Origin: Cliona cf. orientalis
Lineage: Eukaryota > Porifera > Demospongiae > Clionaida > Clionaidae
NCBI GenBank assembly: GCA_963930775.1
Contig: OZ005699.1
Location: 9,135,501-9,199,500, forward strand
DNA length: 64,000 bases
Direction of reading: 5' to 3'
Both the position numbers and the translations under genes were made by a program. Numbering within the stretch: position 1 is the first letter of the stretch; each line of letters begins with the position of its first letter. The notes under the pieces are model-generated. The model made no database searches, was not told the DNA's origin, and saw nothing but the letters and a program-made list of their open reading frames with translations. Below are positions 3,301-58,105 of the stretch, in pieces.

Positions 3301-3723
3301 GGCTGGAGTGTTTACAACTTCTTGTGTCCTGATAACTGAAAAGAAAATATTTGTTATCAAAGTAGTGTATTGTTACCAAAATATCATAAAATACTTGCAA
3401 ATTTACCAAAACCGTAGATATCTATGCTAAAACATGCACATCCACGAATAAACCGTTTATTAAAAACTCTTCTTTCGATCAGAGAATTCTGCAAGTTGAT
3501 CTTACCTCCGCGGCTGCTTCTACTCTCCTTTCAGCACAGCTAGCACCAGCAATAGCACAGAGCTTCCTGCTTTTGTCTGTGATGATTGTGTGTATACGTG
3601 TAGTGCTGGCGTTCAGCTGAAAATTTTAACCCCTTCACGCCTCAATACGTGCTATTCACAAGTTGCGTGGGCGTTGAATCTAGGCTGACAGTACAGTACA
3701 GAAAGCTTAGAATAGCTGCAGCT
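3301..3723. promoter_or_regulatory. PDIA5 5' UTR exons and divergent PDIA5/PTER promoter region
   Basis: On the minus strand an acceptor (cttttcag) precedes a 5' UTR piece at about 3301-3335, and a donor (gag/gtaag) ends an upstream non-coding exon at 3506. The interval 3507-3723 then separates the transcribed starts of PDIA5 (minus) and the first PTER gene (plus), a head-to-head arrangement that suggests a shared promoter. No TATA box was recognised. Confidence 0.5.
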
Positions 3724-5901
3724 ATGGCTGGAGATCTGAAGGGGAAGGCGCTAACAGGTCACTAATTATGAATAATTAGCGGAATTTACTGGTTATTTAA
3801 CTTCAAGATTGTGTACTGATCAAAATTAATATGCTGTGTATCGATTCATAATATATGGAAAGTGTATGTATGTGATCAAACATGTCAAAATTGAAACTTT
3901 TATTCAGTGCTGGGTGTGATTGATCCCTCTGAGCTAGGCCAGACCATGTCACATGACCACATTCTCGTCGATGGCTCGCAGTTCTACATTCCACCAGAGT
4001 ACAGGTCACATGACATGGAGGATCTGGACTTTGACCTTTGCCATCTCGGCAAAATCAGACAATATCCGTACGTCTATTGTATATATACAATAATGCACCT
4101 TCATTCCCAAGCTCTTTTCAATAACTAGAGCTCATAGAGCACGTACCCCGCGTGCCATGGCAATATCACCCATGGCCATGCCTCTTGTTAGAGACCTCTA
4201 TAAATTTCTTTGAAGTTTAATCTCTTGCTACTCATGAACTTTTTTGTTCCCTTCTGAGATCCATGATCACAAATGACATTAATTTTGTGCTAGAAGTATG
4301 CTGTAGAGCAGCTCGAGCATGCACAGTAGACTCCCTAGAGCAGCTTGAGCATGCACAATAGACTTCATGAGGTACTATATACTACCCTAGTAGGTGGGCG
4401 TGTCCGATATACTCGTACGATTTGTAGCTTCCCTGGATCTCTTGCTTGCTACTCATGAACTTTGTCGTTCCCTTCTGAGGTCCACGATCACAAATTTTGA
4501 GCTAGAAGTATGCTGTAGAGCCGCTCGAGCATGCGCAGTATACTCCCTGGAAATAGAGAGCAGCTCGAGCATGCGCAATAGACTTTAGGAGGTACTAGGT
4601 GGGCGTGTCCGAAGTAGGCGTGTCCGACATACTCGCACGATTTGTAGCTTCCCTGGGTATTGCCTAGTGTTAAGAATGAGACAGGAGGTATTTTTTCGCT
4701 GTCTTACATCATTTTGTCCTATTTATTGATCCTACTTTTGCCTAAATGTTGAGATTTGCCGATTTTTGTGCGGACAGACAACAGACAACAGACGACAGAT
4801 AAACCGATTGCTTTACCCCCTGCTGCGCATGCGCGCACGCGGGGTAATTAGCATGCGCGCACGCGGGGTAATTATTATTAAACAATGGTTATCAAAATCA
4901 TACAAAAATTTGATGAAGTTACATGTAAACTTTCTATCTGCTTTCTTATATCCTTCTGCAGATATGCTGTGAAGAAAAATCTTGCATTGAACTCGATCTC
5001 TGACGCTGTTTCTGAGCTGCAGCTGTTCCATGAAGCTGGAGGTGGTACCATATGTGATGTAACCACAGTGGGAATTCGATGCAAGCCTGAGGCACTGCCA
5101 CAGATTTCCCGGGAAAGTGGCGTCAACATCGTCATGGGAACGGGCTACTATGTTGGAAGCTACCTATCAGAGGATGTGAAATTAATGAGCACTCATGAGG
5201 TAAAAAAATGAATCACCTGAATCTTGCGTGATTAGGTGGGATATCTCTCTCTCTTTCTCATCCTTTCTCCAGTAGATGTCCGAAGTGATGGTGAGGGAGA
5301 TAGAGGTTGGTATTGATGGCAGCGGTGGTGTTCGTTGTGGGGTCATAGGTGAGATAGGATGCTCCTACCCTCTGATGGACGTGGAAAAGAAAGCTCTACA
5401 AGCAGCGGCCACCGCTCAGACAAAGACAGGTGATTTAATTTACACAATTTTGCAATTTTGGAGCAAATTTTTTTCCCTTCAGAAATAGTGATAATCGTGC
5501 AGCATTCTTGTTAATTCTCAGTTTAACCAATTCAATGCCAGTTTTTTTTGTTATTTAATTACTTTTTATCCTTTCATTCTCCTTTTATTCTACAATTGCA
5601 GGGGCCTCCCTTATCATTCATCCTGGTCGAGACGATCGAGCACCATTTGAGATCATCTCCATCTTGGAGTCTGCCGGTGCTAGCATTGACCGTACGGTGA
5701 TGTCTCACCTCGACAGGACCCTGCAGGACAAGGAGAGGCTACTGGAGTTTGCCAGAATGGGCTGTATCATGGAGTATGATCACTTTGGTAATGAAATTTC
5801 TCACTGTCAGGTAAGTCTCATTACTAATAGTATTTGAGTCTTCACTAATTTTGGAAATCGAACGTTTGATATTAAATTTTTCTCTCTATATACCTCCCTC
5901 C

Positions 5902-5982
<81 letters not shown>

Positions 5983-6300
5983 TACAGTACTGTCGTGAGA
6001 TTAACATGCCAACAGACGCTCAAAGAATTGAGCGAATCAATTATTTAGTGGATAACGGCTTCAGTGATAAGATTGTGGTTGGCCATGATGTACACACCAA
6101 GCATGTATTAGTAAGTACCCAAGAAGTCGAGCAAAATTATATAGTAATAATTATTTTGGTTGCAGGTGAAGTACGGGGGTCATGGATACGGCCATTTTCT
6201 GGAGCACGTGGCCCCCAAGATGATTGATAGGGGCATCCCCCCGGAGATTGTTCACAAATTCACTGTGGAGAACCCTCAAAAATGGCTAACATTTGTTTAG
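3724..6300 (+). CDS. PTER: Phosphotriesterase-related protein, tandem copy 1
   Basis: An amidohydrolase-superfamily metalloenzyme of the PTER family; mammalian PTER hydrolyses N-acetyltaurine to taurine and acetate. Seven exons: 3724-3757, 3908-4067, 4962-5199, 5276-5429, 5602-5810, 5988-6110, 6166-6300. All junctions are GT-AG and in phase, giving 350 aa (family about 349). Metal-site motifs: HxH at 27-29 (SHDH here, THEH in copies 2 and 3), GEIG around residue 170, IIHPGR (H202), SHLDR (H231) and GHDVH (Asp at about 299). The C-terminus reads NPQKWLTF. It is the most diverged of three adjacent paralogs, yet exons 3 and 4 are almost identical to copy 2, which suggests gene conversion. Intron 2 holds a transposon-like repeat and intron 5 a long CT tract. 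No in-frame stop was seen. Confidence 0.93.
4127..4872. mobile_element. Non-autonomous TIR element, family 1 copy A (PTER copy 1 intron 2)
   Basis: The element starts agagctcatagagc followed by taccccgcgtgc (4144-4155) and ends with the inverse gcacgcggggta (4835-4846, repeated to 4870). It contains a run of aca-gac triplets and the phrase ataaaccgattgctttaccc. The same start, phrase and end recur at 15715-16119, so this is an interspersed family. No coding capacity was seen. It inserts harmlessly in an intron. Confidence 0.6.
4221..4660. repeat. Two-copy tandem repeat of about 215 bp inside the element
   Basis: Two direct copies begin cttgctactcatgaactt (4225 and 4443). Both run through gctagaagtatgctgtagag, gcatgcrca motifs and gtgggcgtgtccga, and end gatttgtagcttccctgg. 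They differ by small indels. Confidence 0.7.
5903..5978 (+). repeat. (CT)n microsatellite acting as polypyrimidine tract
   Basis: About 76 bp of almost pure CT lies immediately before the exon 6 acceptor (cctacag, ending 5987) of PTER copy 1. Confidence 0.95.
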
Positions 6301-6350
6301 CAATTGTTACTGTACATTATAGCGCAATCTATTTTTATGAAATTAAAGTG

Positions 6351-6386
6351 GGTGTGGTTTCCGGGTAGCTCGGTGCTGACTCAGCT
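6351..6386 (+). promoter_or_regulatory. 36-bp block shared upstream of PTER copies 2 and 3
   Basis: The stretch starting ggtgtggtttccgggtagct is identical here and at 9017-9052. It ends about 30 and 11 nt before the respective start codons. It lies in the 5' UTR or core promoter and marks the duplicated unit. Copy 1 lacks it. Confidence 0.6.
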
Positions 6387-6415
6387 CACCCCAGCTTGCA
6401 TCATCTAGACATATC

Positions 6416-8608
6416 ATGGCTGCAGATTTGAAGGGAAAGGTTCTCACAGGTGAACAGCAATGCAACTTAACTTTACTGATGTATGAATTGATAATTTGAA
6501 AATCTGGAAAGAGGCTATATGCAAAAAAATGACTGCTTCTTTTTTCCATCTTTATGTCCCATATACTTCGATGAGTCGATCATGACATGCTCGTGAGTCA
6601 GTGTCTGGCCTAGAGAACTGGGGTCCACTGGACCCAGGACTGCAGGATCGATTGCATATATATGATATATATGCAATCGATCCTGCAGTCCTGGGTCCAG
6701 TGGACCCCAGTTCTCTAGGCCAGACACTGACTCACGAGCATGTCATGATCGACTCATCGAAGTATATCACTCCACCGGAGTATGGGTCGTGTGATACAGA
6801 GGAACTGGACTTTGACCTCTGCCATCTTGGGAAAATTAGACACTTTCCGTAAGCATAGATCCATTAATTAAGCTACCACAACATATGCAAACCTTTTGTG
6901 TGGATGGTATATCAGTGCCGATTTCAATCTCCCTCTCATACATATAATACACCAGATATGCACTGAAGAATAACCTTATACTTGACTCGATCTCTGACGC
7001 TGTTTCTGAGCTGCAGCTGTTCCATGAAGCTGGAGGCGGCACCATATGTGATGTCACCACAGTGGGAATTCGATGCAAGCCTGAGGCACTGCCACAGATT
7101 TCCCGGGAAAGTGGCATCAACATTGTCACGGGAACGGGCTATTACATCGACTCATTTCTGTCGGAAGATGTGAAATTGCTCAGCACCCACGAGGTGGAGA
7201 TAATACACTTCACACATACACACTCCCTTCTCCCCCTCCTTCCCTCGAGTTTTCTTTCTGTCCTCTCTCTCTTCACTATTAGATAAAAGGTATTGATCGA
7301 TCTACACTAGCTATTTATAAACATCTGCTTGTGATTTCCACATCTTAATACTCTATGGCGCCATATTTCTAGATGGCAGAGGTGATGGTGAGGGAGATAG
7401 AGGTTGGTATTGATGGCAGCGGTGGTGTTCGTTGTGGGGTCATAGGTGAGATAGGATGCTCCTACCCTCTGATGGACGTGGAAAAGAGAGCTCTACAAGC
7501 AGCAGCCACCGCTCAGACAAAGACAGGTGAGAAGGAGAGAGAGAGAGAAGGGCAGAGAGAAAGAAAGAGAGGAGTCTAGCTACTAATTTTCAACTTATTC
7601 TCTCAGGGGCACCCTTAATCATTCATCCTGGTCGTGACGATAGATCTCCTTTTGAGATCATCTCCATCTTGGAGTCTGCCGGCGCTAACATCGACCGTAC
7701 GGTGATGTCTCACCTAGACAGGACCCTGCAGGAAGGGACCAAGCTGTTGGAGTTTGCCAAGCTAGGCTGCATCATGGAGTACGACCTCTTTGGCATCGAG
7801 TGCTCACACTATCAGGTACATAATACTGTGAACAAAATTTAATTATTATTATGGTTGCATATTACTTCTTAGCAACCGCAAATCTGCTGGTTTTTCTGTG
7901 GGGTGTATGGATATTCTTGTGGTGCCATTAAATTTGATTTTTGACATAGTTTTGTGCATTCACTTGCATGGTCCTCAAGGCTAGGAACCTATACAATGCG
8001 GTTCTGCTATAATAGGTTTGCCTGAGCAGGCAATGGGGATTGATCAGATCAATATTCACCCTTTAGGTTTAGGACTGCTATAGTACTATACCACTGAATC
8101 TCATGCACACAGCTGAACCACAGTGCAGACATGCCAAGTGATGCCCAGAGGATCCAGCGAGTGAAGCTGCTGGTTGACAACGGCTACGCTGATAGAGTGG
8201 TCATAGCACAGGACATGCACCTCAAACACAGGCTGGTAAGAAGAATAATAATATTATTATTATGCTGAATAGCAAACTTCTTGATTGGGTGTTCATCATG
8301 ATATTGATAGCTGCGAGCTAGATCGTGTTACACCAATCTGGCATTATTTCTCTCAATGAAAAATAATTCATCTCTAAAAATTTTGGTGGGCATAAACTTA
8401 ATTTTGGTGAAATGGCATCCTGGAAGTCAGTTAATTAATAGGGTCTTCCTCATTCCCAATTATTATTACCCAGGTGAAGTACGGAGGTCATGGCTACGCC
8501 CACGTCCTGGAGAACATCGTCCCCAAGATGAAGGAGAGAGGGATTTCCCCTGAGAACATTCACAAGATACTCGTTGAAACCCCACAGAAGTGGCTCACGT
8601 TTATTTAG
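6416..8608 (+). CDS. PTER: Phosphotriesterase-related protein, tandem copy 2
   Basis: Same family, length (350 aa) and seven-exon layout as copy 1, with exon lengths identical throughout: 6416-6449, 6689-6848, 6956-7193, 7373-7526, 7607-7815, 8113-8235, 8474-8608. Metal-binding motifs are intact: THEH (H27, H29), GEIG (E170), IIHPGR (H202), SHLDR (H231) and AQDMH (D299). The start [11 protein letters not shown] matches copy 3. Intron 1 and the first 79 nt of exon 2 are spanned by a perfect inverted repeat with 103-bp arms (separate entry). This puts the 3' splice site inside a predicted RNA hairpin, so expression may be impaired even though the reading frame is complete. Relative to copy 3 it shares upstream and 3' flanking sequence, so the two arose by one duplication of about 2.6 kb. 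Confidence 0.92.
6561..6767. repeat. Perfect palindrome, 103-bp arms, one-base centre
   Basis: Bases 6561-6663 are the exact reverse complement of 6665-6767, with centre G at 6664. I checked this base by base. The right arm is the genuine PTER copy 2 sequence: 24 nt of intron 1 including the acceptor, plus 79 nt of exon 2. The left arm is an inverted copy placed just upstream. Copy 3 lacks the left arm: its intron runs from tttattaaatattatgtcc directly into atcctgcag, and copy 2 has the matching tttatgtcc just before the left arm. Confidence 0.97.
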
Positions 8609-9062
8609 ACAACGAACCATAAAAATTATAAAATTAATATTAGCTTCTATTTTTGATCGAATATGATTAAAAGTCATGCACTAGAACTACGTATACAGTA
8701 CATTGGTGAACAATGGCCACAGAGGAGGAACATCTATATACAGCCAGTAGAACACCATCAGTACACACAATCTAGTGAGTGCAGAGAGAGACGGGGTGGG
8801 GGTGACAGAACCATTATCTATTCCATGATTAAATTTTGTGTGGCATCAGTTAGCTGTATCATGCGATCACAGCACAACACATGCTGGCTCAGACAAGAGA
8901 TTGGGTTAAAAAACAGTCATTAATTTTGCCACCATGAGACACTATGTACTAGCATAGCAGTCAGTTTGTAAACATTACCCGTTACTATTATAGTGTTAAT
9001 TGTAGCAATTAAAATAGGTGTGGTTTCCGGGTAGCTCGGTGCTGACTCAGCTGTATCCTGAC
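8609..9062. other. Intergenic spacer between PTER copies 2 and 3
   Basis: AT-rich 3' flank of copy 2. The stretch at about 8764-8960 (containing acaatctagtgagtgc and gatcacagcacaacaca) has a diverged counterpart after copy 3 at about 11180-11460. The 36-bp pre-ATG block recurs at 9017-9052. No gene is seen. Confidence 0.7.
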
Positions 9063-10523
9063 ATGGCTGCAGATTTGAAGGGAAAGGTTCTCACAGGTGA
9101 ACAGCAATGCACGCAGTTGATACAGTGACTATTAAACTTTAATAAATTTACTGATCTATGAATTATTTCAAAATATTAAAATTATGTGGGAGAGGCTGTA
9201 TGCAATGATTGTGTCCATCTTTATTAAATATTATGTCCAATCCTGCAGTCCTTGGTCCAGTGGACCCCAGTGCTCTGGGCCAGACGCTGACTCACGAGCA
9301 TGTCATGATCGACACATCAAAATACTTCACCCCGCCATGTTACGGATCATGGGACATGGAGGATATGGACTTTGACCTCTGCAATCTTGGAAAAATCAGA
9401 CACTTCCCGTATGCGTAATGACTATAATTTTTTAGCAACCCTTTCCAAGAGCCACTCTGCTACAGATTTGCTGCTAAAAAGAATATTGTACTTGACTCGA
9501 TCTCTGACGCTGTTTCTGAGCTGCAGCTGTTCCATGAAGCTGGAGGTGGTACCATATGTGATGTGACCACAGTGGGAATTAGGAGCAACCCCGAGGCATT
9601 GCCGCAGATTTCCCGGGAAAGTGGCGTCAACATTGTCACAGGAACTGGTTATTACATCGACTCATTTCTATCAGAGGATACCAAACTTCTTAGTACACAC
9701 GAGGTGGAGATACCCTTCAACATATTCACTTGCATACATATTTATACACAGTCTTATCTCTGAACCTTTCAACAGTCATGCAAAATCATTGAAAGCTGTA
9801 TTATAGAATATTAATATGCACACACGAATACTACATCCAGATTGAAGAGAAATACATTGGTGTATGTATTTTATCTCCCTCTTGGTTTTTATATAGATGG
9901 CTGAGGTGATAGTGAGAGAGATAGAAGTCGGTATTGATGGCAGCGGTGGTGTTCGTTGTGGGGTCATAGGTGAGATAGGATGCTCCTATCCTCTGATGGA
10001 CGTGGAGAAGAAAGCTCTACAAGCAGCGGCCACCGCTCAGACAAAGACAGGTGAGAGAGAGAGAGAGAGAGAGAGAAAGGTGTCTAGCTATCAATTTGTT
10101 CCCTCAGGGGCCCCCCTTATCATTCATCCTGGTCGAGATGATAGGTCTCCATTTGAGATCATCCCCATTTTGGAGTCTGCTGGTGCCAACATCGACCGTA
10201 CAGTGATATCTCACCTCGACCGGACCCTGCAGGATAAGGCTAAACTACTGGAGTTTGCCAAGCTAGGCTGCATCATGGAGTACGACCTCTTTGGTATGGA
10301 GTGCTCTCACTATCAGGTGAGGTATATACTAGGAGGATGCCCCTGTGATTAAGACATGCACTTCAACATGATCACGGCCCCCTTAAGCTTCCCACCTATT
10401 CTTTGCATCTTCCATGTAGTGCGGGAAGAAAAACTGCGATTTTGACTTAAAACGTTTGCAAGTACTAAAATTAATTTGTGATTGTATGGTACAAGGTCGA
10501 CAATCATACTCTTATGTTCCCCC

Positions 10524-10554
<31 letters not shown>

Positions 10555-11044
10555 AGTTCAACCACAATTTGGACATGTTAAGTGATGCTCAACGAATTCA
10601 GCGGGTGAAACTGCTGATGGACGGTGGCTACGCTGATAGAGTGGTCGTTGCTCAGGATATACATCTAAAACATAGGCTGGTAAGAACAAGTACATCATTA
10701 TTATCAGTATATAATTATTTATCGTGCCAAGGTATAATACGGAATCAATCAATATTGTATTGTACACATGTAGACCACCGATTTGCAACTATAAATTTAT
10801 TAATTGCTACAGTCCCCCCCCCCCCCCCCCCCCCATGATATAAATTAGTAAGGACTCCTCACTTGTTTAATATAGGGTCTTCCTCGTTCCCAATAATATT
10901 ATTTCCCAGGTGAAGTACGGAGGTCATGGCTACGCCCACGTCCTGGAGAACATCGTCCCCAAGATGAAGGAGAGGGGGATTTCCCCTGAGAACATCCACA
11001 AGATACTCGTTGAAACCCCACGGAAATGGCTCGCGTTTATTTAG
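9063..11044 (+). CDS. PTER: Phosphotriesterase-related protein, tandem copy 3
   Basis: Seven exons identical in length to the other copies: 9063-9096, 9249-9408, 9466-9703, 9897-10050, 10108-10316, 10557-10679, 10910-11044, encoding 350 aa. Motifs THEH, GEIG, IIHPGR, SHLDR and AQDIH keep all predicted metal ligands. Protein and silent sites are close to copy 2, especially exons 3-5 and 7, indicating recent duplication or conversion. The polypyrimidine tract of exon 6 is an uninterrupted run of 30 C, and intron 6 has a 21-C run. The gene faces TRA2 tail to tail across about 1.6 kb. Substrate specificity of the three paralogs cannot be told apart from sequence. Copy 3 differs from copy 2 at scattered positions and shows no lost ligand. 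Confidence 0.93.
10525..10554 (+). repeat. C30 homopolymer at the exon 6 acceptor of PTER copy 3
   Basis: Thirty consecutive C directly precede the AG of the 3' splice site, so the run serves as the polypyrimidine tract. A C5-T lies just before it. Confidence 0.95.
10814..10834 (+). repeat. C21 homopolymer in PTER copy 3 intron 6
   Basis: Twenty-one consecutive C sit about 75 nt before the exon 7 acceptor. Confidence 0.95.
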
Positions 11045-12615
11045 ATAACTGAACGTAAAACTGGATTTAGCTTCTATTTTTTTTAATTGATGGTATTAAT
11101 TTTAAAATTAGATTAAAATAAAAATCAGTCAAAATACAGTATGTTGGTGAATGGTGACCTCTGTGAGGAATGTCTCATCCAGTACACATAATCTAGTGAG
11201 TGCATACGAGAAAGAGAGAGAGAGAGAGTGTGTAAATCTCAGGTTCCCCATTCATGCATATAAATTGTATCAAGCCAGGTTCAAGGCCAGCAGTGACTGA
11301 GACAACTGGACCATAATCTATTAATCTTCTGTTTTGTGGCATCAGTGAGCACTGTGTCATGTGATCACAGCACAACACAAGTTGGCTCAGACAAGAGGTG
11401 TCAGAAAAGAATTTTGGTTTAAAAACAATCATCACTTGCCACCATGAGATACGTACTACATAGGCAAAGTATATTATAGGCTGATTGCAAAAATCACCGG
11501 AACCCCCAAAAGTTCTCTCTTTAACTACTGACTACCCAAAACCAAATCTCTCTGTGTCTCCTTACCTCCATCACATCTTCTCTCTCGTCCATGTTAGCCC
11601 CCTCACTCTTGAGAGAAATTGCATGTTTGTTTTGCTGGAAAGTAAGGATTATGAACAATACACAACTACAGTACCCCACTCCACCTCCATGATCCTCAAG
11701 TAGGCTATCCTTTAATATTATAAAATTTTTTTGAATATTTATACTTTCCAAGATCTTATCAATAAAATAATAATGCATGGTTTTTGGTGCACAATAATTA
11801 TCGTACTGTGCATGTAGCCAAGCCCACTTCGGTCAGTACAGCATAACTTCTAGTCAAGACATTCATTTTTTCCTTTAAATAAGATAAGTTAACCCCTTGA
11901 CTACTATCTTCATGCTCTCAAATGCTACAGAATTCGTAAGTATAACCACATCGGCCAACATCCCTCCCCCCCCCCCCAAGTCAAGCAACTTCTCACCAGA
12001 GCAGTTTCTATCTTGGTAAATTCTCAGTGTTTTTCACCCTTCTATATTCTTATTCTTATCTTCGATTCAAGCTCATGCTCTTGATTCATTCTTGAAGCTT
12101 CTATTTCGTCTGCTTCATCCTAAAACATTACTTGATGCCCATTCTGAAACTTCATGATTTCATTCTTCATGTTTCTATTTTCTGGCCCCAATTCTGAAAC
12201 TTCATATTTTCATTCTTGAAGCTTCTATTTTCTGGCTTCGTCATAAAAACTTGAAACGCATTTCTGAAACTTCGTCTTGGAAGCTTCTTGGCTTCTGATT
12301 TCAAATTTTCAACACACATACTCTTAGCTGGGAGGGGTATGAAAGAGAACAGTATTACAGAGCGGCAAGTAGCCACATTCAAACAAAATATCAAAAAATG
12401 CCAACACCAATCAAAATGTTCAGGTTTTATTCTATGTACATACATAGCTCTAAATGCATGCTAAGGTGCTCAGCTTTATAAGGTATATATAGACACGAGG
12501 GGGCATAGGTATTAGTTTCGGTATATAGAGCAAGTCATAATGTTACATGTTACTATTTTTAGTACGTATAGAGTATGATGTAATGTAGTCCAGAGAGAAA
12601 TAGCAAGGACCCCTC
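11045..12615. other. Convergent intergenic region between PTER copy 3 and TRA2
   Basis: Holds the duplicated PTER 3' flank to about 11460, a C14 run at about 11966, and an irregular repeat at about 12085-12290 built from phrases such as cttgaagcttctattttctgg and attctgaaacttca. No convincing coding exon is seen. Small ORFs here have no family resemblance. Confidence 0.6.
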
Positions 12616-47978: not shown

Positions 47979-48073
47979 TTATATCCCGAGGCACAATCAC
48001 CATAGATACAAGTCTATCCTAGTTGTTGCTACGTGCTTATACGCTTAGCAACAGTCAAAGATTTCTAAACCGA

Positions 48074-49738
48074 ATGGCTAAGCTTGGCCTTGACTACACT
48101 GTCGTTTCTCCGTCACTTCTTGAAAACTCAACCATTCGTCGTACCTCGTCTTGCTTTAGTCTAGGAATTATGGAGGAGTTTACTGAAGCGTACATTCAGT
48201 CTCTTGAGCAAAATTTGGACGAAGCGTGTAAGAAACTTCACCACCACGACGATTCGATCAACCGTTCGAGCGCCACACCCGTTCACCCGACACGCAAGAC
48301 CCGCCCAGACCCCTCCTCCAAGTTCAGCACACTCCAGCCCCACCCTCAAGCGAGCTCCTCCCTCCCCCAAGAACCACCTGCTAAAAAGAGTCGTTTCTCT
48401 AAACTTTCAAAGGAGGAATTAGATGACTTGTCAAAACCCAATATACCCAAAAATACTGAAGTATCAACAAAATGGGCTGTGGAGAACTTTAGGTCTTGGA
48501 TGGAAGAGAGAAACCAATGTAGTGAAGAAAAATGTCCAGAGACGCTCTTGGAGGACATGGCACCTTGCGACTTAAACAAATGGCTTTCCATTTATGTTGC
48601 TGAAACTAGAAAAGTCAATGGAGAATTGTATCCACCGACAACAATTCATCAACTTCTAGCTGGTATTCAACGTCATATGCGAGCCATAGACCAGGAAAAT
48701 GCACCCAACATTTTTGCCAAAAATGATCCTGCATTTTACACGTTGCATCAGACAATGGACTCTGTCTATAAAAAACTCAGGTCCAGTGGCGTTGGTGCTC
48801 AAAAGCAACCCACGGAAACTTTTTCTAAGGAGGAGGAGAATACACTCTGGGAGAGTGGTGTGCTCGGTACAGATAATCCTAAAAGTCTCTTGCGTGCTGT
48901 ATTTTTTGGAAATGGGAAAAACTTCTGCTTGAGAGGTGGTAGTGAACACAGGGATCTCAGATTATCTCAAATTCAGCAGACTGAGAATGGGTATAAGTAT
49001 ACTGAAAATTCATCGAAAAACCGCTCCGGTGGTCTCGCTCAGTTACACCTCAAGAACAAATGTGTTGAGATATACAGAAATCCTGAAGCTGGAGATCGTT
49101 GCCACTGTAGAATATTAGACTTGTACATCAGCAAACTGCCTTCTGAGGCCAAGGATAAAGATTTATTTTATGTACGTCCCATGGAAAAAACAAATAGTAG
49201 CACACCCACATACGAGAGATCTGTGTGGTACTATAGCATTCCAGTCGGTCGCAATAAGCTTGCACAAATGGTGCCAGAAATTTGCAAGCTTGCAAATATC
49301 TCGGGTCACAAGACAAACCATAGCCTACGGGCTACTGGTGCTACTGAACTATATGAAGCAGAGGTGCCAGAAAAAATCATTCAAGAAAGAACTGGTCATC
49401 GTTCACTCGAGTGTTTACGGACATATGAACGTACAAGTGACAAACAGCACCAAGCAGTTTCCAATATCCTATCGTCTACCTCGCAATCATCTTATCACGC
49501 ACAAATAGCCAAGTTGGATCCCAGTAATCATCAGCTATCTACTCAGACTACTCCTACACCTGGCCAATTATCTAATATGAGCTTTGCAAAATGCCAGGTC
49601 AACATTAACATTAATCATGGACCATCAGCACCAGTAACGTTTACAACCACCACCTCTCCTGTGTCCAGGTCATCTACTTCAGATATGGGCATGCCAAGCG
49701 AGGACGAGCTTCTTCAGTTTTTAAAGGACCTGCAGTAA
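48074..49738 (+). CDS. Crypton-type tyrosine recombinase (DUF3504-like), 554 aa
   Basis: A single uninterrupted ORF. The start is placed at the ATG of MAKLGLDYT; a later ATG at 48170 (MEEFTEAYIQ) is possible. The N-terminal 110 residues are Ser/Pro-rich. A SAM-like core-binding region follows at about 130-260 (TKWAVENFRSWMEERN, TIHQLLAGIQRHMR). The catalytic domain has the first Arg in FCLRGGSEHRDLRLSQI, then HSLRATGATELYE and ERTGHRSLECLRTYER, supplying the H-x-x-R, the His and the Tyr nucleophile of tyrosine recombinases. This arrangement is that of Crypton elements and their domesticated relatives (ZMYM, QRICH1, KCTD1 types). No disabling mutation is visible, so the copy could be active or recently inserted. 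Confidence 0.88.
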   Translation: MAKLGLDYTVVSPSLLENSTIRRTSSCFSLGIMEEFTEAYIQSLEQNLDEACKKLHHHDDSINRSSATPVHPTRKTRPDPSSKFSTLQPHPQASSSLPQEPPAKKSRFSKLSKEELDDLSKPNIPKNTEVSTKWAVENFRSWMEERNQCSEEKCPETLLEDMAPCDLNKWLSIYVAETRKVNGELYPPTTIHQLLAGIQRHMRAIDQENAPNIFAKNDPAFYTLHQTMDSVYKKLRSSGVGAQKQPTETFSKEEENTLWESGVLGTDNPKSLLRAVFFGNGKNFCLRGGSEHRDLRLSQIQQTENGYKYTENSSKNRSGGLAQLHLKNKCVEIYRNPEAGDRCHCRILDLYISKLPSEAKDKDLFYVRPMEKTNSSTPTYERSVWYYSIPVGRNKLAQMVPEICKLANISGHKTNHSLRATGATELYEAEVPEKIIQERTGHRSLECLRTYERTSDKQHQAVSNILSSTSQSSYHAQIAKLDPSNHQLSTQTTPTPGQLSNMSFAKCQVNININHGPSAPVTFTTTTSPVSRSSTSDMGMPSEDELLQFLKDLQ

Positions 49739-51269: not shown

Positions 51270-53329
51270 AGTACAAGGAGCACATATCAGATATGCGGTG
51301 CTATATTGAGAGCAAGCTTTGGAATTAAAAATTCGTATAAGAATTATTTATAATTATGTAACTCGACCACAAATCAAGCTAACATTATTAATGAAAGTAT
51401 TATTATTTGTATTTTAAGTATTTTAATAATAATAATATTATTATTCACTCAAAAATTTTCTCCCCTATTATATATAATTACATGCACTCTTCACTGGCCT
51501 CCCTATAGTTCAGTGGGCCATGGCCTCACAAACCTTTGACCCTAGCCCTGCCCCCTATAATATTATTATCATGAGGGCAAAGTGCACAGTGGGTGGAGTC
51601 TGGAGCAATGACATCATTCCAAGGCATCAGTTCTAGTTGCCATAGGCATATGCACACAGTAGGCATGGCCCTGATATGGAGTCCAGTGGGTTCAATTATA
51701 TATCAGCTGGAGGAACTCATGAACAAAGGAGGTCAGAAACACAAAATTTAAAATAATTGCATGTACACCTATAGCTTGCTAGTTTCATTCATATCATATC
51801 AAACATGCACCATACCCGGTATATTTTGGCATTTTTGCCTCCTGCTTATCATTGTACAAAATTTTAAAGTTATGAATTAAAGCATGGAGCAATCTTCATC
51901 CAATGCTTGAGAATTCAGCATGTAATGTCAGCAAGGATCCATTTAGCTATTAGAAAGCAATCCGATCATTTTGGGACTTTTTGTATGACTGGCATATGAT
52001 TGTAGCTTGTCTGCATAAAGAAAATTGTGTGTACAATGTCATGTGTACTCTGCTGTAATCTGCTCTATGTTTGTGGCTACGTATACACTACTGATACATG
52101 TAGCTACACTGACAGCCGCATTCGTAGAAAGCAGATACCATAGCTACCACCATCTTCCTCAAATTGTGTACATAGTCTCCCCGGCTTGCTTGTTGTGTGC
52201 ATCAAGAAATGTGTACTCTACTGTAATCTGTTCTTTGTTTGTGGCAATACACTGCTGATGCATGTATACTGACAGCTGCATTCGTAGAAACCAAGTTGGA
52301 CATTATCATGATAAAAATTGATCATGCTACCATCTGGTCTCTTTCTCATGATCATAGTAGGTCACATAATGTATTATACGTAGCCAATTTTCTCCAGTGA
52401 AATGATGTATACATTTGCCTTTCATACTATAATATAGGTACACCCTCTCATTTCCTCTCTCCCTCCCTTTCTTCTGCTGTTGTCACTATTATAGCAGTGA
52501 TATCGATAGTCCAGCATCCAATGGCTGTGACCGGCCACAATGGGTCCTTGGAGATGATGCTCCATCGAAGGCTGGTGAAGAAGATGGACATCAGAGGAGA
52601 CGATATAGCACAGTAACGAGTTCAATGATTCAGTGCTCATAGGAGGACTTATGGACAAGGTGGATGGAGCTAAATGAAGTGGGAAGGGTCTCTATGAATT
52701 TTACATGTGTCCTTATAGAGGGGTTCCCACTACATGTAGCTAGTTGTTATAGCTAGTTCTCCACTGTAGTATGAAATAACCGTGATCATGCTATGCATAG
52801 TATCTAGGGACCACCAATATACAATACAGTAACTGTAAATTACTTATCCTGGCCGGTATAATGTAATGCTAATTCGCAAAATTTTCATTGTTAAATAGTT
52901 TTTGTTTTGCACAAATGTTTTACATGAAATAGTTAACCTATACAGCAAATATAGTAGCAATCCATACAACTGATCTATAATATTATCATGATAACTATGA
53001 TGTCACTAGGTTTCCTAGAAGTCATGTAGACAGGTTCAGCTAGTGAGGCTGTACGTGTGGCTATTTAAGTGCCTCACAGATCATTCAACTTAGGACTCAG
53101 TGAAGATTTGACTAATTTTATGAGAGCCTACTTCAAGATAAACCATCAGATTCAGCTAAAGCTACCGTGGACACTCCTCAACAGTGACATATTATAGCTA
53201 AATAGTAGGTTTGAGCAATACAGAGAAGATAGCTACTGGCTAAAGTAGCTACCTTGGCATGACATCATCTAAAACTCAGCTCACTGATTCAGAATAAGTC
53301 TAGTACTGTTTACCTTAGCTATTGGTGCA
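51270..53329. other. Non-coding part of duplication unit A
   Basis: Matches about 59390-61449 closely (for example gcaaagtgcacagtgggtgg at 51578 and its near-identical partner near 59734). It holds two diverged direct repeats of about 95 bp (52027-52130 and 52196-52292, with gtgtactctrctgtaatctg), an exon relic, and a TATA-like tatttaag near 53064 that is conserved in unit B. Confidence 0.7.
52495..52650 (+). pseudogene. Alpha-mannosidase (GH38)-like exon relic, unit A
   Basis: After a pyrimidine-rich acceptor (ttgtcactattatag) the sequence reads VQHPMAVTGHNGSLEMMLHR then RLVKKMDIRGDD before a stop. NGSLEMMLHRRL followed by an RG-containing loop is what the C-terminal region of family 38 mannosidases looks like. 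No other mannosidase exon is nearby, so it is a stranded fragment. Identification is from recalled motif only. Confidence 0.45.
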
Positions 53330-56300
53330 ATGAGTAGCCATCGTTTTGCTCTCACTCTGCATCTGTTACTGTTCCTCTTGGTGTACGCTGACTCAGCAAA
53401 AAGCCAGCAGGCACACTACTACATCACACCCTCACTGAGTGTTGTCTGTCCTGGAGATCCCTGCCTTACTCTACCACAGTTGGCTGCTAATTCCAATAGC
53501 TACCTCCGCAATGAAAAAAACATATCTCTCTCTTTTCTGCCAGGATATCACAGTCTTGATGGAGAGCTCTCCCTGTCTCATGCAAACAATTTCTCAATGA
53601 CAAACGTCATAGGAGGCAATGGAATTGTGTTTGTAGAATGTGGCAGTCAGTCAGGAAGGTTCAATATCAGTGAGACAGCATTTGCTATGATAAAGGATCT
53701 GCACTTTATTGGCTGTGGAGGTAACAGAGTTAGCCAAGCAGGGCAATTTATAGTTGAAGACACCATCTTTGAGGGTGTGGAAGGCAGAGGTAGAGCACTA
53801 GTGCTGAATGAAGTGACTGATGTTAGTATTGCAAGAAGTTCATTCCTTTCCAATACACAAGGTAGCACATTTGATTCAAACTTTAGACTTGAAGATCTAC
53901 TGAATTATCTCTATCTAAATCGAAATTCATCGCTTGCAGTTGGTGGTGCAGTGTACACAGCCTTCAGCAATGTTTTAATTGTCAGCAGCAAGTTCACAGA
54001 CAACAGAGCCGAGGTAGGAGGAGCACTGTTTGCCCATAATAGCAGTCTCCATGTTATTGGAAGCACTTACAGCTACAATAAAGCTAGTTGTGCTGGGATC
54101 ATGACCACATTGGGATCCTCAATCAGTATCAAAAATTGTAATTTTATTGGAAATGCAGCCATGATCGATGGTGGAGTAATGATAGCATATAGAGACTTAT
54201 TCAATATCCATGGTACCACTTTTACTAACAATAGTGCTGGTCGTGGGGCAGGAGTAATACTGACATATGACTCAATGTTCAGTACCACAGATACCATTTT
54301 TAGTGACAATACAGCTAAAATATACGGTGGAGTAATTCACGCAAATAATGGCTCATTCACTATTACCAGCAGTACTTTTGCAAATAACAATGCAGCTAAT
54401 CTTGGTGGTATCATGATCATATTTAATTCATCACTATTTAATATCACCAGCAGTACTTTTATTAACAACAGTGCAGCTAAAAGTGCCGGTGTCATGTACA
54501 TACGAAATTCATCATTAAGTATTATCAACAGTACTTTTACTAACAACAGTGCAGCTTATAGTGGTGGTGTCATGATCATATTTGATTCGTCACTATTTAA
54601 TATCACCAGCAGTACTTTTATTAGCAACAGTGTAGCTGATAGTGGCGGTGTCATATACATACGAAATTCATCATTAAGTATTATCAACAGTACTTTTACT
54701 AACAACAGTGCAGCTGATAGTGGTGGTATCATGTACACAGGACATTATTCATCATTTAATAGTAGTTTTGCTAACAACCGTGCAGCAAATTGTGGTGGTG
54801 TCATTTATACACGTAATTCGTCATTTACTATCACCAGCAGTACTTTTACTAGCAACACTGCGGCTGATCTTGGTGGTGTCATGGAAACATTTGATTCGTC
54901 ATTTAATATCACCAGCAGTACTTTTACTAACAACACTGCAGCTGATGGTGGTGGTGTCATGGAAACATCTAATTCGTCATTTAATATTATCAGCAGTACT
55001 TTTACTAACAATAGTGCAGCTGATAATGCCGGTGTCATGTACACAGGACATAATTCATCATTAAATATTATCAACAGTACCTTTACTAACAACAGTGCAG
55101 CTTATGATGGTGGTGTCATAGTCTCCTTTATGTCATTATTTAATATCACCAGCAGTACTTTTACTAACAACAGTGCAGGTGACTATGGTGGTGTCATATA
55201 TGCACTCGCTTCATTGCTTAACATTGGTGATAGCAGTTTTTATGCTAACACAGCTATCAGCTATGGAGGAATAATAGTCACTATAAAAAGCTCTACACAT
55301 GTTACTAATGGTACATTTGACTATAACTCAGGATCACTCTACATTTTCTACAGCAACCTCACTTTCAGTGGCTATACAAGATTAGAGAACAGTACAGTAC
55401 AATCAAATGGTGCAAGAGAAGAAGGAGGGGTAATCACTAGTTTTCTGTCGACTGTGATCTTCACTGGAGTAAGCGTTTTATCAAACAACCAAGCAAGGTG
55501 TGGTGGAGCAATATTGGCCACTGAGAGTAAAATCATGGTTTATGATGAAATAACAATAGCCAATAACACAGCCACAGTCAGCAGTGGAGGTGGTATTTCT
55601 CTCAGACAAAGTGATCTTATAGTTAGGGGAAACTGTAACATCTCTGACAATGATGCTGTGATGGGTGGAGGAATCCATGCCATTAGTTCAACTATAGCTG
55701 TATATCAACCACGGACTCTTCAATTTATCAACAACCGAGCAAAAAATGGAAGCGGACTTTATTTAGAAGTTAATGCAAAATTGTATGTAGTAAAAGATAT
55801 ACAGCAGAGAAATGTCCATTATGGACACCTACTTATACTATTCAAAGCTAACCATGCCAACTATGGAGGAGCCATATATGTGGCAGACAATACCAATGCT
55901 GGTGCTTGCTCACCTGACCATGAATGCTTTATCCAAATACTTGGACTGCATCAAAATTTTAGTTCATTATTTATTTTTCATGATGCAGTAATACACATAC
56001 TTGAATTTTCTGGTAACACTGCAAGTGAGCAAGGAGTCAACATCTTTGGAGGACTACTAGATAGATGCATCCCAAGTTCATTTGCTGAAGTGTCATGGAA
56101 ATTAGAGACACCATCATACTACAGTGGTGTCAGTTACCTTGAAGACATCACCAATAATATAACTGCTACAGCATTAGATACCATATCCTCTCTACCTGTT
56201 CGAATTTGTTTTTGTAAGAGTGAGAGTGAGCCAGACTGCGGCTACCAGCCACCAACCATCAAAGTCAAGAAAGGAGAAGCTTTCACTGTACCACTTGTTG

Positions 56301-58105
56301 CAGTGGATCAAGTCAATCATTCTGTAGATGCAAACATTATCAGTTCTCTATCATTTCAAGATGGTGGTTTTAGTGAAGGACAGCAAACTCAGAGGGTAGA
56401 GAAAAACTGTAGCAATGTAACATTCAATGTGTTCTCTGCTCATAACTCAGAAAGAATAAACCTCTTTGCCGATGGTCCTTGTGGAAGCTCCACACTTTCC
56501 ACACGACAACTTTATATCCATTTCAGTGACTGCACTTGCCCAGTTGGTTTTGAGTCTTCTAAATCTGATACAAGGTGCCAATGCTTTTGTGATACACAAT
56601 TGTATCCCCACATCATTAACTGTGATCCAGTAGCTGAATCTCTTATGAGAGTGAACACTAACTCATGGATAACTCACATCAATGACACTGATCCACCTGG
56701 CTATGTCATTCATCCCAACTGTCCTTTGGACTACTGCCGACCTCCAACTGAAAATGTGAGCATGAATCTCAACCTTCCTGATGGATCAGATGCACAGTGT
56801 GCTTACAATCGTACTGGAATTTTATGTGGAGGTTGTCAGGAACACCTCAGCCTCTCCCTGGGTAGTTCACGTTGCTTATCTTGTCACAGTTACTGGCCTG
56901 CAGTGCTTGTTTTAATTCTCCTAGTTGCCATCATAGCAGGAATCTTGCTGGTGACTGCACTATTAGTCCTCAACATGACAGTGGCTGTTGGACTCATTAA
57001 TGACTTTATCTTTTATGCTAACATCGTAGCAGCTAACAATGCCGTCTTCTTTCCATCGTCAGAGCCTAGCTTTCCCACTGTGTTTGTAGCTTGGCTTAAT
57101 ATGGACATAGGAATTGATGTCTGTTTCTTTAACGGTCTTGATACATATATCAAAACCTGGCTTCAACTGGCTTTTCCAGTGTACATTATCTCTCTAGTGA
57201 TTATCATGATCATAGTCAGTGAGTACTCCCCTCGATTTGCTGGACTAATTGGAAAGAGAGACCCAATTGCAACTCTAGCTACACTAATCCTGCCGTCTTA
57301 TGCCAAACTCCTCTCAGTGACTATCACAGCTTTATCGTTTGCTGTCCTTGAATATCCTGATGGCTCACGAGAGACTGTATGGCTTCCTGATGGAAATGTG
57401 CCATACTTTCAAGGGAAACACGTAGCTCTTGTCCTCGTTGCCCTGTTGATTATTCTAGTTGGTGTCCCCTACACAATTCTTCTCTTTCTCTGGCAGTGGC
57501 TTGTTCGTGCTCCAGAGTGGAAGGTTTTCAATTGGACAAGGAACACTAAGCTCAATGCCTTTATCTCTGTCTACCATGCTCCATACAACAGAAAGTATCG
57601 CTACTGGACTGGATTGCTACTGCTCGTGAGGGTGATCTTGTACATCATTGCTTCAGTCACTGTATCCAGAGATCCTCAAACTTCACTCTTAACAACTAGC
57701 ATCTTAGTTGGAAGCCTCTTTCTTATTAAAGAGATTACTGGAGCGAGGGTGTACAAAAAATCATTCTTGAACATCATAGAGACAGGGCTCTACTTCAATC
57801 TTCTTGCATTGTCTGCATTTAGTTTTTACCACTTCAAAATTGACATTGGGAAACAGACAGCTGTGGCCTACACCTCTACCATCATGACCTTCATCCTTCT
57901 GATTGGAGTAATTATCTATCACGTGTATTTGCTGGTTAGAAAGGATCAGCCCTGGCTGGGAGATCTAGAGGAGTTGAATGAGTATCTCCTGGCTCCAGTT
58001 CAACCTGTTACAAATACAGTGACTCACTCTAGTGTTGAAATCCCCCAGGATCGAGATCAGTCTCCACCACCAGCTGAGATAAACAATAATCAGAGAAATT
58101 ATTAG
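53330..58105 (+). CDS. Giant intronless beta-helix / multi-pass membrane protein, copy A (1,591 aa)
   Basis: One uninterrupted ORF. Order: signal peptide 1-25; N-terminal cap to about 180; a right-handed beta-helix of polymorphic-outer-membrane-protein (Chlam_PMP-like) repeats to about 870, densest at about 250-640 where 23-26 aa rungs of the form SSFNITSSTFTNNSAADGGG repeat; a region at about 900-1060; a Cys-rich membrane-proximal module at about 1060-1185 (CTCPVGFES, CPLDYC, GILCGGCQEHLSLSLGSSRC); then seven to eight hydrophobic helices from about 1187 to 1540 and a cytosolic tail (WLGDLEELNEYLLAP). Most rungs add N-x-S/T sites. The architecture suggests a cell-surface receptor or adhesion protein. 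I know related unnamed families from early-branching animals. No enzymatic motif is seen. The start lies in atgagtagcc, conserved in copy B. Confidence 0.88.
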   Translation: MSSHRFALTLHLLLFLLVYADSAKSQQAHYYITPSLSVVCPGDPCLTLPQLAANSNSYLRNEKNISLSFLPGYHSLDGELSLSHANNFSMTNVIGGNGIVFVECGSQSGRFNISETAFAMIKDLHFIGCGGNRVSQAGQFIVEDTIFEGVEGRGRALVLNEVTDVSIARSSFLSNTQGSTFDSNFRLEDLLNYLYLNRNSSLAVGGAVYTAFSNVLIVSSKFTDNRAEVGGALFAHNSSLHVIGSTYSYNKASCAGIMTTLGSSISIKNCNFIGNAAMIDGGVMIAYRDLFNIHGTTFTNNSAGRGAGVILTYDSMFSTTDTIFSDNTAKIYGGVIHANNGSFTITSSTFANNNAANLGGIMIIFNSSLFNITSSTFINNSAAKSAGVMYIRNSSLSIINSTFTNNSAAYSGGVMIIFDSSLFNITSSTFISNSVADSGGVIYIRNSSLSIINSTFTNNSAADSGGIMYTGHYSSFNSSFANNRAANCGGVIYTRNSSFTITSSTFTSNTAADLGGVMETFDSSFNITSSTFTNNTAADGGGVMETSNSSFNIISSTFTNNSAADNAGVMYTGHNSSLNIINSTFTNNSAAYDGGVIVSFMSLFNITSSTFTNNSAGDYGGVIYALASLLNIGDSSFYANTAISYGGIIVTIKSSTHVTNGTFDYNSGSLYIFYSNLTFSGYTRLENSTVQSNGAREEGGVITSFLSTVIFTGVSVLSNNQARCGGAILATESKIMVYDEITIANNTATVSSGGGISLRQSDLIVRGNCNISDNDAVMGGGIHAISSTIAVYQPRTLQFINNRAKNGSGLYLEVNAKLYVVKDIQQRNVHYGHLLILFKANHANYGGAIYVADNTNAGACSPDHECFIQILGLHQNFSSLFIFHDAVIHILEFSGNTASEQGVNIFGGLLDRCIPSSFAEVSWKLETPSYYSGVSYLEDITNNITATALDTISSLPVRICFCKSESEPDCGYQPPTIKVKKGEAFTVPLVAVDQVNHSVDANIISSLSFQDGGFSEGQQTQRVEKNCSNVTFNVFSAHNSERINLFADGPCGSSTLSTRQLYIHFSDCTCPVGFESSKSDTRCQCFCDTQLYPHIINCDPVAESLMRVNTNSWITHINDTDPPGYVIHPNCPLDYCRPPTENVSMNLNLPDGSDAQCAYNRTGILCGGCQEHLSLSLGSSRCLSCHSYWPAVLVLILLVAIIAGILLVTALLVLNMTVAVGLINDFIFYANIVAANNAVFFPSSEPSFPTVFVAWLNMDIGIDVCFFNGLDTYIKTWLQLAFPVYIISLVIIMIIVSEYSPRFAGLIGKRDPIATLATLILPSYAKLLSVTITALSFAVLEYPDGSRETVWLPDGNVPYFQGKHVALVLVALLIILVGVPYTILLFLWQWLVRAPEWKVFNWTRNTKLNAFISVYHAPYNRKYRYWTGLLLLVRVILYIIASVTVSRDPQTSLLTTSILVGSLFLIKEITGARVYKKSFLNIIETGLYFNLLALSAFSFYHFKIDIGKQTAVAYTSTIMTFILLIGVIIYHVYLLVRKDQPWLGDLEELNEYLLAPVQPVTNTVTHSSVEIPQDRDQSPPPAEINNNQRNY
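54340..55230 (+). repeat. In-frame 69-78 bp rung repeats of copy A
   Basis: About a dozen tandem units sharing atcaccagcagtacttttac and taacaacagtgcagctga, all multiples of three and encoding beta-helix turns. The antisense ORFs listed by translation are shadows of these repeats. Confidence 0.9.

Follow-up and report, generated by a model that had tools for sequence, protein, structure and literature searches.

Three tandem PTER genes lie on the forward strand of the window analyzed here, a 64,000-nt stretch of the genome of the sponge Cliona cf. orientalis. We built all three gene models by hand, and each contains seven exons separated by GT-AG introns. Copy 1 (3724–6300) and copy 3 (9063–11044) are intact 350-codon models, and the middle gene, copy 2 (6416–8608), also comprises 350 codons without an internal stop, with coding exons at 6416–6449, 6689–6848, 6956–7193, 7373–7526, 7607–7815, 8113–8235, and 8474–8608. 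The copy 2 protein matches the Pfam PTE family (PF02126) with an E value of 3.9e-87, its residues 16 to 348 covering positions 1–298 of the 298-position profile, and its best match among solved structures is a phosphotriesterase-related protein (9efa), aligned over residues 2 to 350. Among the matches listed, many homologs of copy 2 are annotated as N-acetyltaurine hydrolase. By sequence, copy 2 is thus a member of the PTER/N-acetyltaurine hydrolase family, with a predicted enzyme activity. Within the best 120 of 3,295 protein matches, the highest identity is to the sponge Geodia barretti (56% over the full length), and the top score belongs to a 559-aa protein filed as Blattella germanica (40%). 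All 24 of the PTE matches listed for the genome are found either at the PTER trio or on contig C17. Copies 2 and 3 are the closest pair of the trio, with a CDS identity of 87.5%, a dS of 0.453, and a dN/dS of 0.134.

Elsewhere in the window, a 571-aa open frame at 48023–49738 has matches to DUF3504, QRICH1, and Phage_integrase, and we take it to resemble a Crypton-type tyrosine recombinase. A 1605-aa open frame at 53288–58105 contains tandem units of 78 nt and matches the Chlam_PMP repeat; a similar unit makes up another array at 62464–62978.

Anatomy and uniqueness of the palindrome

The boundary between intron 1 and exon 2 of copy 2 is occupied by a perfect palindrome. Its right arm (6665–6767, forward strand), the source copy, consists of the final 24 nt of intron 1 and the initial 79 nt of exon 2 (6689–6767), and the acceptor AG of exon 2 (6687–6688) is located within the stem. 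The left arm (6561–6663), inserted in intron 1, is the reverse complement of the right arm at 103 of 103 positions. A single base, G6664, separates the two arms, within TGCATATATAT-G-ATATATATGCA. The anatomy described in the initial annotation, in which exactly complementary 103-nt arms flank a one-base center and span the 3′ splice site together with 79 nt of exon 2, was confirmed with no mismatch. The right arm encodes the sequence THEH, which we take to be the HxH metal-ligand motif of the PTE family.

No comparable structure was found in the remainder of the window, where the runner-up perfect palindrome has 17-nt arms and a scan allowing up to 100 nt between arms detected no second inverted repeat. 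We extended the comparison to a genome sample of 284 kb in 23 stretches, made up of the window and 22 further 10-kb stretches. When spacers are limited to 8 nt, the next perfect inverted repeats in this sample have arms of 45, 25, 22, and 21 nt; the first three of these have matches in other sampled stretches, and the 21-nt repeat (in stretch L015) matched only itself among the sampled stretches. Arms longer than 30 nt with a spacer of up to 8 nt occur twice in the 284 kb, once as the PTER palindrome and once in a MITE-like repeat in stretch L017. A 254-kb scan with spacers of up to 100 nt and mismatches allowed recovered a 91-nt inverted repeat in L017, which overlaps the 45-nt one, and six weaker inverted repeats with scores of 20–28, all outside the window. 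When the whole assembly (216.8 Mb in 149 contigs) was searched at the DNA level, the palindrome was found once, together with the copy 3 exon, among the best candidates, which were the ones scored.

The L017 repeat (8105–8318) is palindromic, with perfect 91-nt arms and an overlapping 45-nt palindrome, and a 66-nt relative that is 92% identical to it lies in the window at 8302–8367, in intron 6 of copy 2. Although this MITE-like element resembles the PTER palindrome in having perfect inverted arms, it has this relative elsewhere, whereas the PTER palindrome is made of single-copy gene sequence. A perfect palindrome with 25-nt arms was observed at 6874–6923 of L003, and half of it recurs in a second sampled stretch, L022 (2345–2372); it perhaps represents another small palindromic repeat family.

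Two further origins were considered and rejected. Chance pairing would have a probability of ≈4^-103 per position, a value obtained by arithmetic rather than from DNA shuffles. A transposon or MITE origin is contradicted by the single copy found (among the best candidates) and by the lack of a target-site duplication beyond 1 nt. Compared by eye, the flanks (...GTCCC on the left and CACTC... on the right) have no direct repeat longer than 1 nt in common.

Paralog comparison, age, and origin of the inserted arm

Copies 1 and 3 match the palindromic exon in a single orientation only. The initial annotation had described the paralog 2.6 kb away as lacking the inverted arm and had dated the palindrome after the duplication. 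Exon 2 of copy 3 begins 2,560 nt downstream of exon 2 of copy 2, and both alignment and the inverted-repeat scan find that copy 3, and likewise copy 1, is without the inverted arm, which supports an origin after the paralogs split. The right arm runs on into the remainder of copy 2, and 70 of its 79 exon nt are identical in copy 3. At all nine of the sites within these 79 nt at which copies 2 and 3 differ, the left arm has the copy 2 state, which indicates that copy 2 itself was the template. When the left arm and the center are removed, the start and end of intron 1 align with copy 3 and the middle is diverged; close to the junction, copy 2 has 15 bases that lack a counterpart in copy 3. Both flanks of the palindrome are colinear with the gene, the left flank being intron, as judged against copy 3 only. 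Before the event, the ATATATATGCAATCG stretch would have come immediately after the intron flank. Most simply, the left arm is an insertion that postdates the split between copies 2 and 3; precise loss of the arm from both other copies would be a less simple account.

With copy 1 as a distant outgroup, three of the nine exon differences are assigned to copy 2 and four to copy 3, and two are unassigned. Two of the three copy 2-derived bases, 6765 and 6766, occupy the third- and second-to-last positions of the arm, within its terminal TATAT. Correction at the hairpin end may have introduced these bases from the intron side, one of them turning the F of copy 3 into I. Alternatively, the two changes may predate the event and have provided the match.

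The absence of any difference between the arms limits μt to ≤0.0195 (95%, with exon constraint allowed for), against a μT of 0.2265 for the split between copies 2 and 3. On the assumption that no conversion has occurred between the arms, which would void the bound, the palindrome is at most ≈8.6% (about 9%) as old as the split. The branch to copy 2 carries 20 nonsynonymous and 33 synonymous changes and that to copy 3 carries 23 and 40, counts that exclude 16 three-state sites and use copy 1 as a distant outgroup. By these sequence counts, amino-acid changes are not in excess in copy 2, which looks to have been constrained until recently. The idea of an old, selected hairpin found no support, and perfect arms can reveal no compensatory change.

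A reverse-complement copy placed beside its source, between colinear flanks, is the pattern left by a template switch or by the fold-back of a broken end. The fold-back origin that the initial annotation had mentioned is supported by the position of the reverse copy, by the flanks, and by the paralogs without the arm, whereas the steps of the mechanism are a reconstruction. A nascent or resected strand would have turned back on itself at an ATATAT-rich site immediately upstream of the acceptor of exon 2; alternatively, the polymerase would have jumped to the complementary strand. Approximately 100 nt would then have been copied in reverse, after which synthesis would have rejoined the intron, possibly by way of a 5-nt ATATA match. 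The expected product, consisting of the left flank, the reverse copy, and the source, is a perfect palindrome with 103-bp arms. The ATATA at the start of the left arm (6561–6565) is also found at the start of the right arm (6665–6669) and is a candidate for the microhomology at the return point; such sharing has a probability of ≈0.1% by base composition, at a site that is AT-rich and for a match noticed post hoc.

Predicted hairpin and splicing of copy 2

Folded alone as RNA, the palindrome is predicted to form a helix of 103 bp with an energy of −212.8 kcal/mol, a very stable predicted hairpin that supports the acceptor-containing duplex proposed in the initial annotation. In a 440-nt context, the predicted fold reaches −261.5 compared with −118.4 for shuffled sequences (sd 5.9, n = 100; z = −24.2). 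The full stem is also predicted for single-stranded DNA. The accompanying claim that the duplex hides the acceptor is a fold prediction and is weaker than the annotation put it. For the 15 nt ending in the AG, the predicted probability of being unpaired is 0.000 in copy 2, as compared with 0.345 in the empty-site view of the same gene, 0.146 in copy 3, and 0.443 in copy 1. For the AG itself, however, the palindrome-free controls also give low values (0.035 in copy 1, 0.014 in copy 3, and 0.051 in the empty-site view). The AG is therefore mostly paired without the palindrome as well and does not discriminate by itself. What sets copy 2 apart in these models is how strong its helix is, together with the pairing of the 15-nt stretch ending in the AG. 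Structures that mask splicing signals are reported to hinder the use of those signals (PMC11802352, PMC4615370).

The richest pyrimidine tract of intron 1 (6537–6560; 21 of 24 nt) directly abuts the left junction of the palindrome. As assembled, the distance from tract to acceptor is 128 nt, as opposed to 24 nt when the left arm and center are removed, and seven AGs, starting at 6574, 6596, 6600, 6612, 6614, 6636, and 6644, have been added between the two. The displacement of the tract and these added AGs, which the initial annotation does not mention, should harm splicing even without folding. Given the predicted hairpin together with a tract 128 nt away and seven intervening AGs, normal splicing of exon 1 to exon 2 has probably been lost in copy 2, and we expect this copy to be a null or weak allele. 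Translation of the models shows that skipping of exon 2 or retention of intron 1 leads to early stops. Three of the left-arm AGs, at 6600, 6612, and 6636, share the reading frame of exon 2 with no stop across the palindrome, and their use would give frames of 367–379 residues.

Overall, we consider it likely that a single recent fold-back (short-range template-switch) mutation struck copy 2, that canonical exon 1–2 splicing was probably lost as a result, and that copy 2 now represents a null or weak allele of very recent origin, with a reading frame that has stayed intact so far. A variant compatible with this interpretation replaces the switch at a fork with a double-strand break, followed by fold-back, copying, and capture of the end by end joining. 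We regard this route as possible, if short of an even chance. Fold-back inversions at yeast breaks are reported to range from 2 to about 150 bp, with 0–5 bp of microhomology at the captured end, but most of them are under 14 bp (PMC11724301). In yeast with working Mre11/Sae2, the median loop of fold-back hairpins is reported as 36 nt (PMC7467729), which makes a 1-nt center atypical of an intrastrand fold-back. The final sequence is identical for the break and fork routes and cannot separate them. An assembly or library artifact, in which a polymerase fold-back or a chimera from amplification or sequencing was retained in the consensus, appears improbable. Amplification of a library commonly produces inverted chimeric reads, and a tardigrade MDA study describes them as often exceeding one third of mitochondrial reads (PMC13265396); moreover, the 284-kb sample holds no other palindrome of such length outside repeats. 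A chimeric read, however, would retrace its own path without returning, whereas here the left flank is intron, so that a second switch would be needed. The contigs, of which 19 of the 20 checked are 7.2–37.5 Mb long (the other is 12 kb), are likewise not suggestive of heavily amplified input. The chimeric reads that the initial annotation had raised as an artifact source therefore fit poorly with flanks that are colinear with the gene on both sides, and a simple chimera becomes less likely. The splicing outcome could also differ from simple loss. If the stem looped out, the tract would come to lie 13 nt from the first AG beyond the hairpin (6779–6780) and 32 nt from the second (6798–6799), and in yeast, hairpins are reported to reduce the effective spacing between the branch point and the 3′ splice site and to be able to occlude cryptic sites (PMC12350175). 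Use of the second AG, which is in frame, would yield a shortened copy 2 protein of 313 aa, but this product would lack residues 12–48, including the HxH motif, and its activity is thus unlikely; the nearer AG would shift the frame, with a stop after 15 residues. We judge such a hairpin-skipping splice switch unlikely.

The perfect 103-bp stem of exon sequence beside the paralog copy 3 also invites a reading in which it already works, or is starting to work, as a functional hpRNA/siRNA or edited-dsRNA locus that represses copies 2 and 3. Of the 83 21-mers of the right arm, 57 pair with copy 3 at two or fewer mismatches (7 exactly and 29 with one mismatch), whereas all 83 have at least five mismatches to copy 1, which would hardly be a target. 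The initial annotation had envisaged small RNAs directed against the paralogs; judged by 21-mer complementarity, such RNAs could act on copies 2 and 3 but hardly on copy 1. Complementarity of a long stem to a separate gene, as expected of an hpRNA or endo-siRNA locus, is present with respect to copy 3 and absent with respect to copy 1. RNase III matches occur in the genome at three loci, with two in a tandem pair within one open frame on C16, three on C9, and one on C18. The Drosophila simulans hpRNA hp58 is reported to bear an inverted exon 2 fragment of the adjacent gene (PMC10317233), and endo-siRNA clusters are described in the sponge Amphimedon, although the unique endo-siRNAs there are, according to the authors, mostly of cis-NAT and not of hairpin origin (PMC6211395). 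The stem in copy 2 carries no sign of selection, youth being sufficient to account for perfect arms, and Rfam, microRNA families included, gave no match at the gathering score over positions 3500–11300. We therefore find a functional role of this kind very unlikely. It is more doubtful still that one fold-back both silenced copy 2 and turned its pre-mRNA into a dsRNA that silences or edits copies 2 and 3, with a protein gene becoming a hairpin-RNA gene; were this so, a new regulator would have been born in place, in a single step, within a tandem array.

Significance and relation to known systems

The class of mutation to which we assign the PTER palindrome is known. Among mutations inside genes, what appears to be a real palindrome in copy 2 stands out as unusually long, clean, young, and well placed. 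Decay and selection should keep long perfect palindromes rare in coding genes. Perfect inverted repeats have been surveyed, with a low density reported for eukaryotic exons and coding sequence and with arms of 140 bp in the longest human case (PMC13155455). Among the matches listed in a nonexhaustive search of the literature on fold-back and sponge palindromes, template-switch hairpins, and inverted duplications, no title concerned the PTER palindrome locus. With a fresh event, an intact frame, and two unmutated paralogs as internal controls, copy 2 lends itself to testing how a single error of replication or repair can remove a splice site and whether a new dsRNA is noticed by RNAi or editing before decay of the gene.

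The hpRNAs of Drosophila provide one point of comparison. In hp58 and other young hpRNA loci, an inverted exon fragment, from exon 2 in the case of hp58, is described next to a homologous gene, as is the case here. Unlike the PTER hairpin, however, which sits inside a gene and is known from DNA alone, hp58 is a separate hpRNA locus reported to respond to the loss of dcr-2 (PMC10317233).

Another likeness is found in the four-point template-switch model of Löytynoja and Goldman, in which one event sets a reverse copy beside its source and produces a perfect hairpin, as observed in copy 2 (PMC7954356, PMC8794818). In a great-ape survey, the majority patterns of such switching, 1-4-3-2 and 3-2-1-4, are reported to yield single inverted repeats (PMC7954356), and single events are said to be able to create perfect RNA hairpin stems (PMC8794818). 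Read from left to right, the PTER palindrome would correspond, by our own assignment, to the order 1-4-3-2. It differs from the published cases in that its 103-nt arms and 1-nt center lie across an acceptor and a coding exon, and in that the ancestral state is judged from a paralog. The fold-backs and templated inverted insertions described in yeast are likewise inverted duplications made locally, and the length of the PTER arms falls within their reported range; the short microhomology at their junctions has a candidate counterpart here in ATATA. Most of the yeast insertions are far shorter than the PTER arms (PMC11724301, PMC7467729). Hairpins with short loops are reported in yeast mainly for mre11 or sae2 mutants (PMC7467729), whereas the center of the PTER palindrome is 1 nt.
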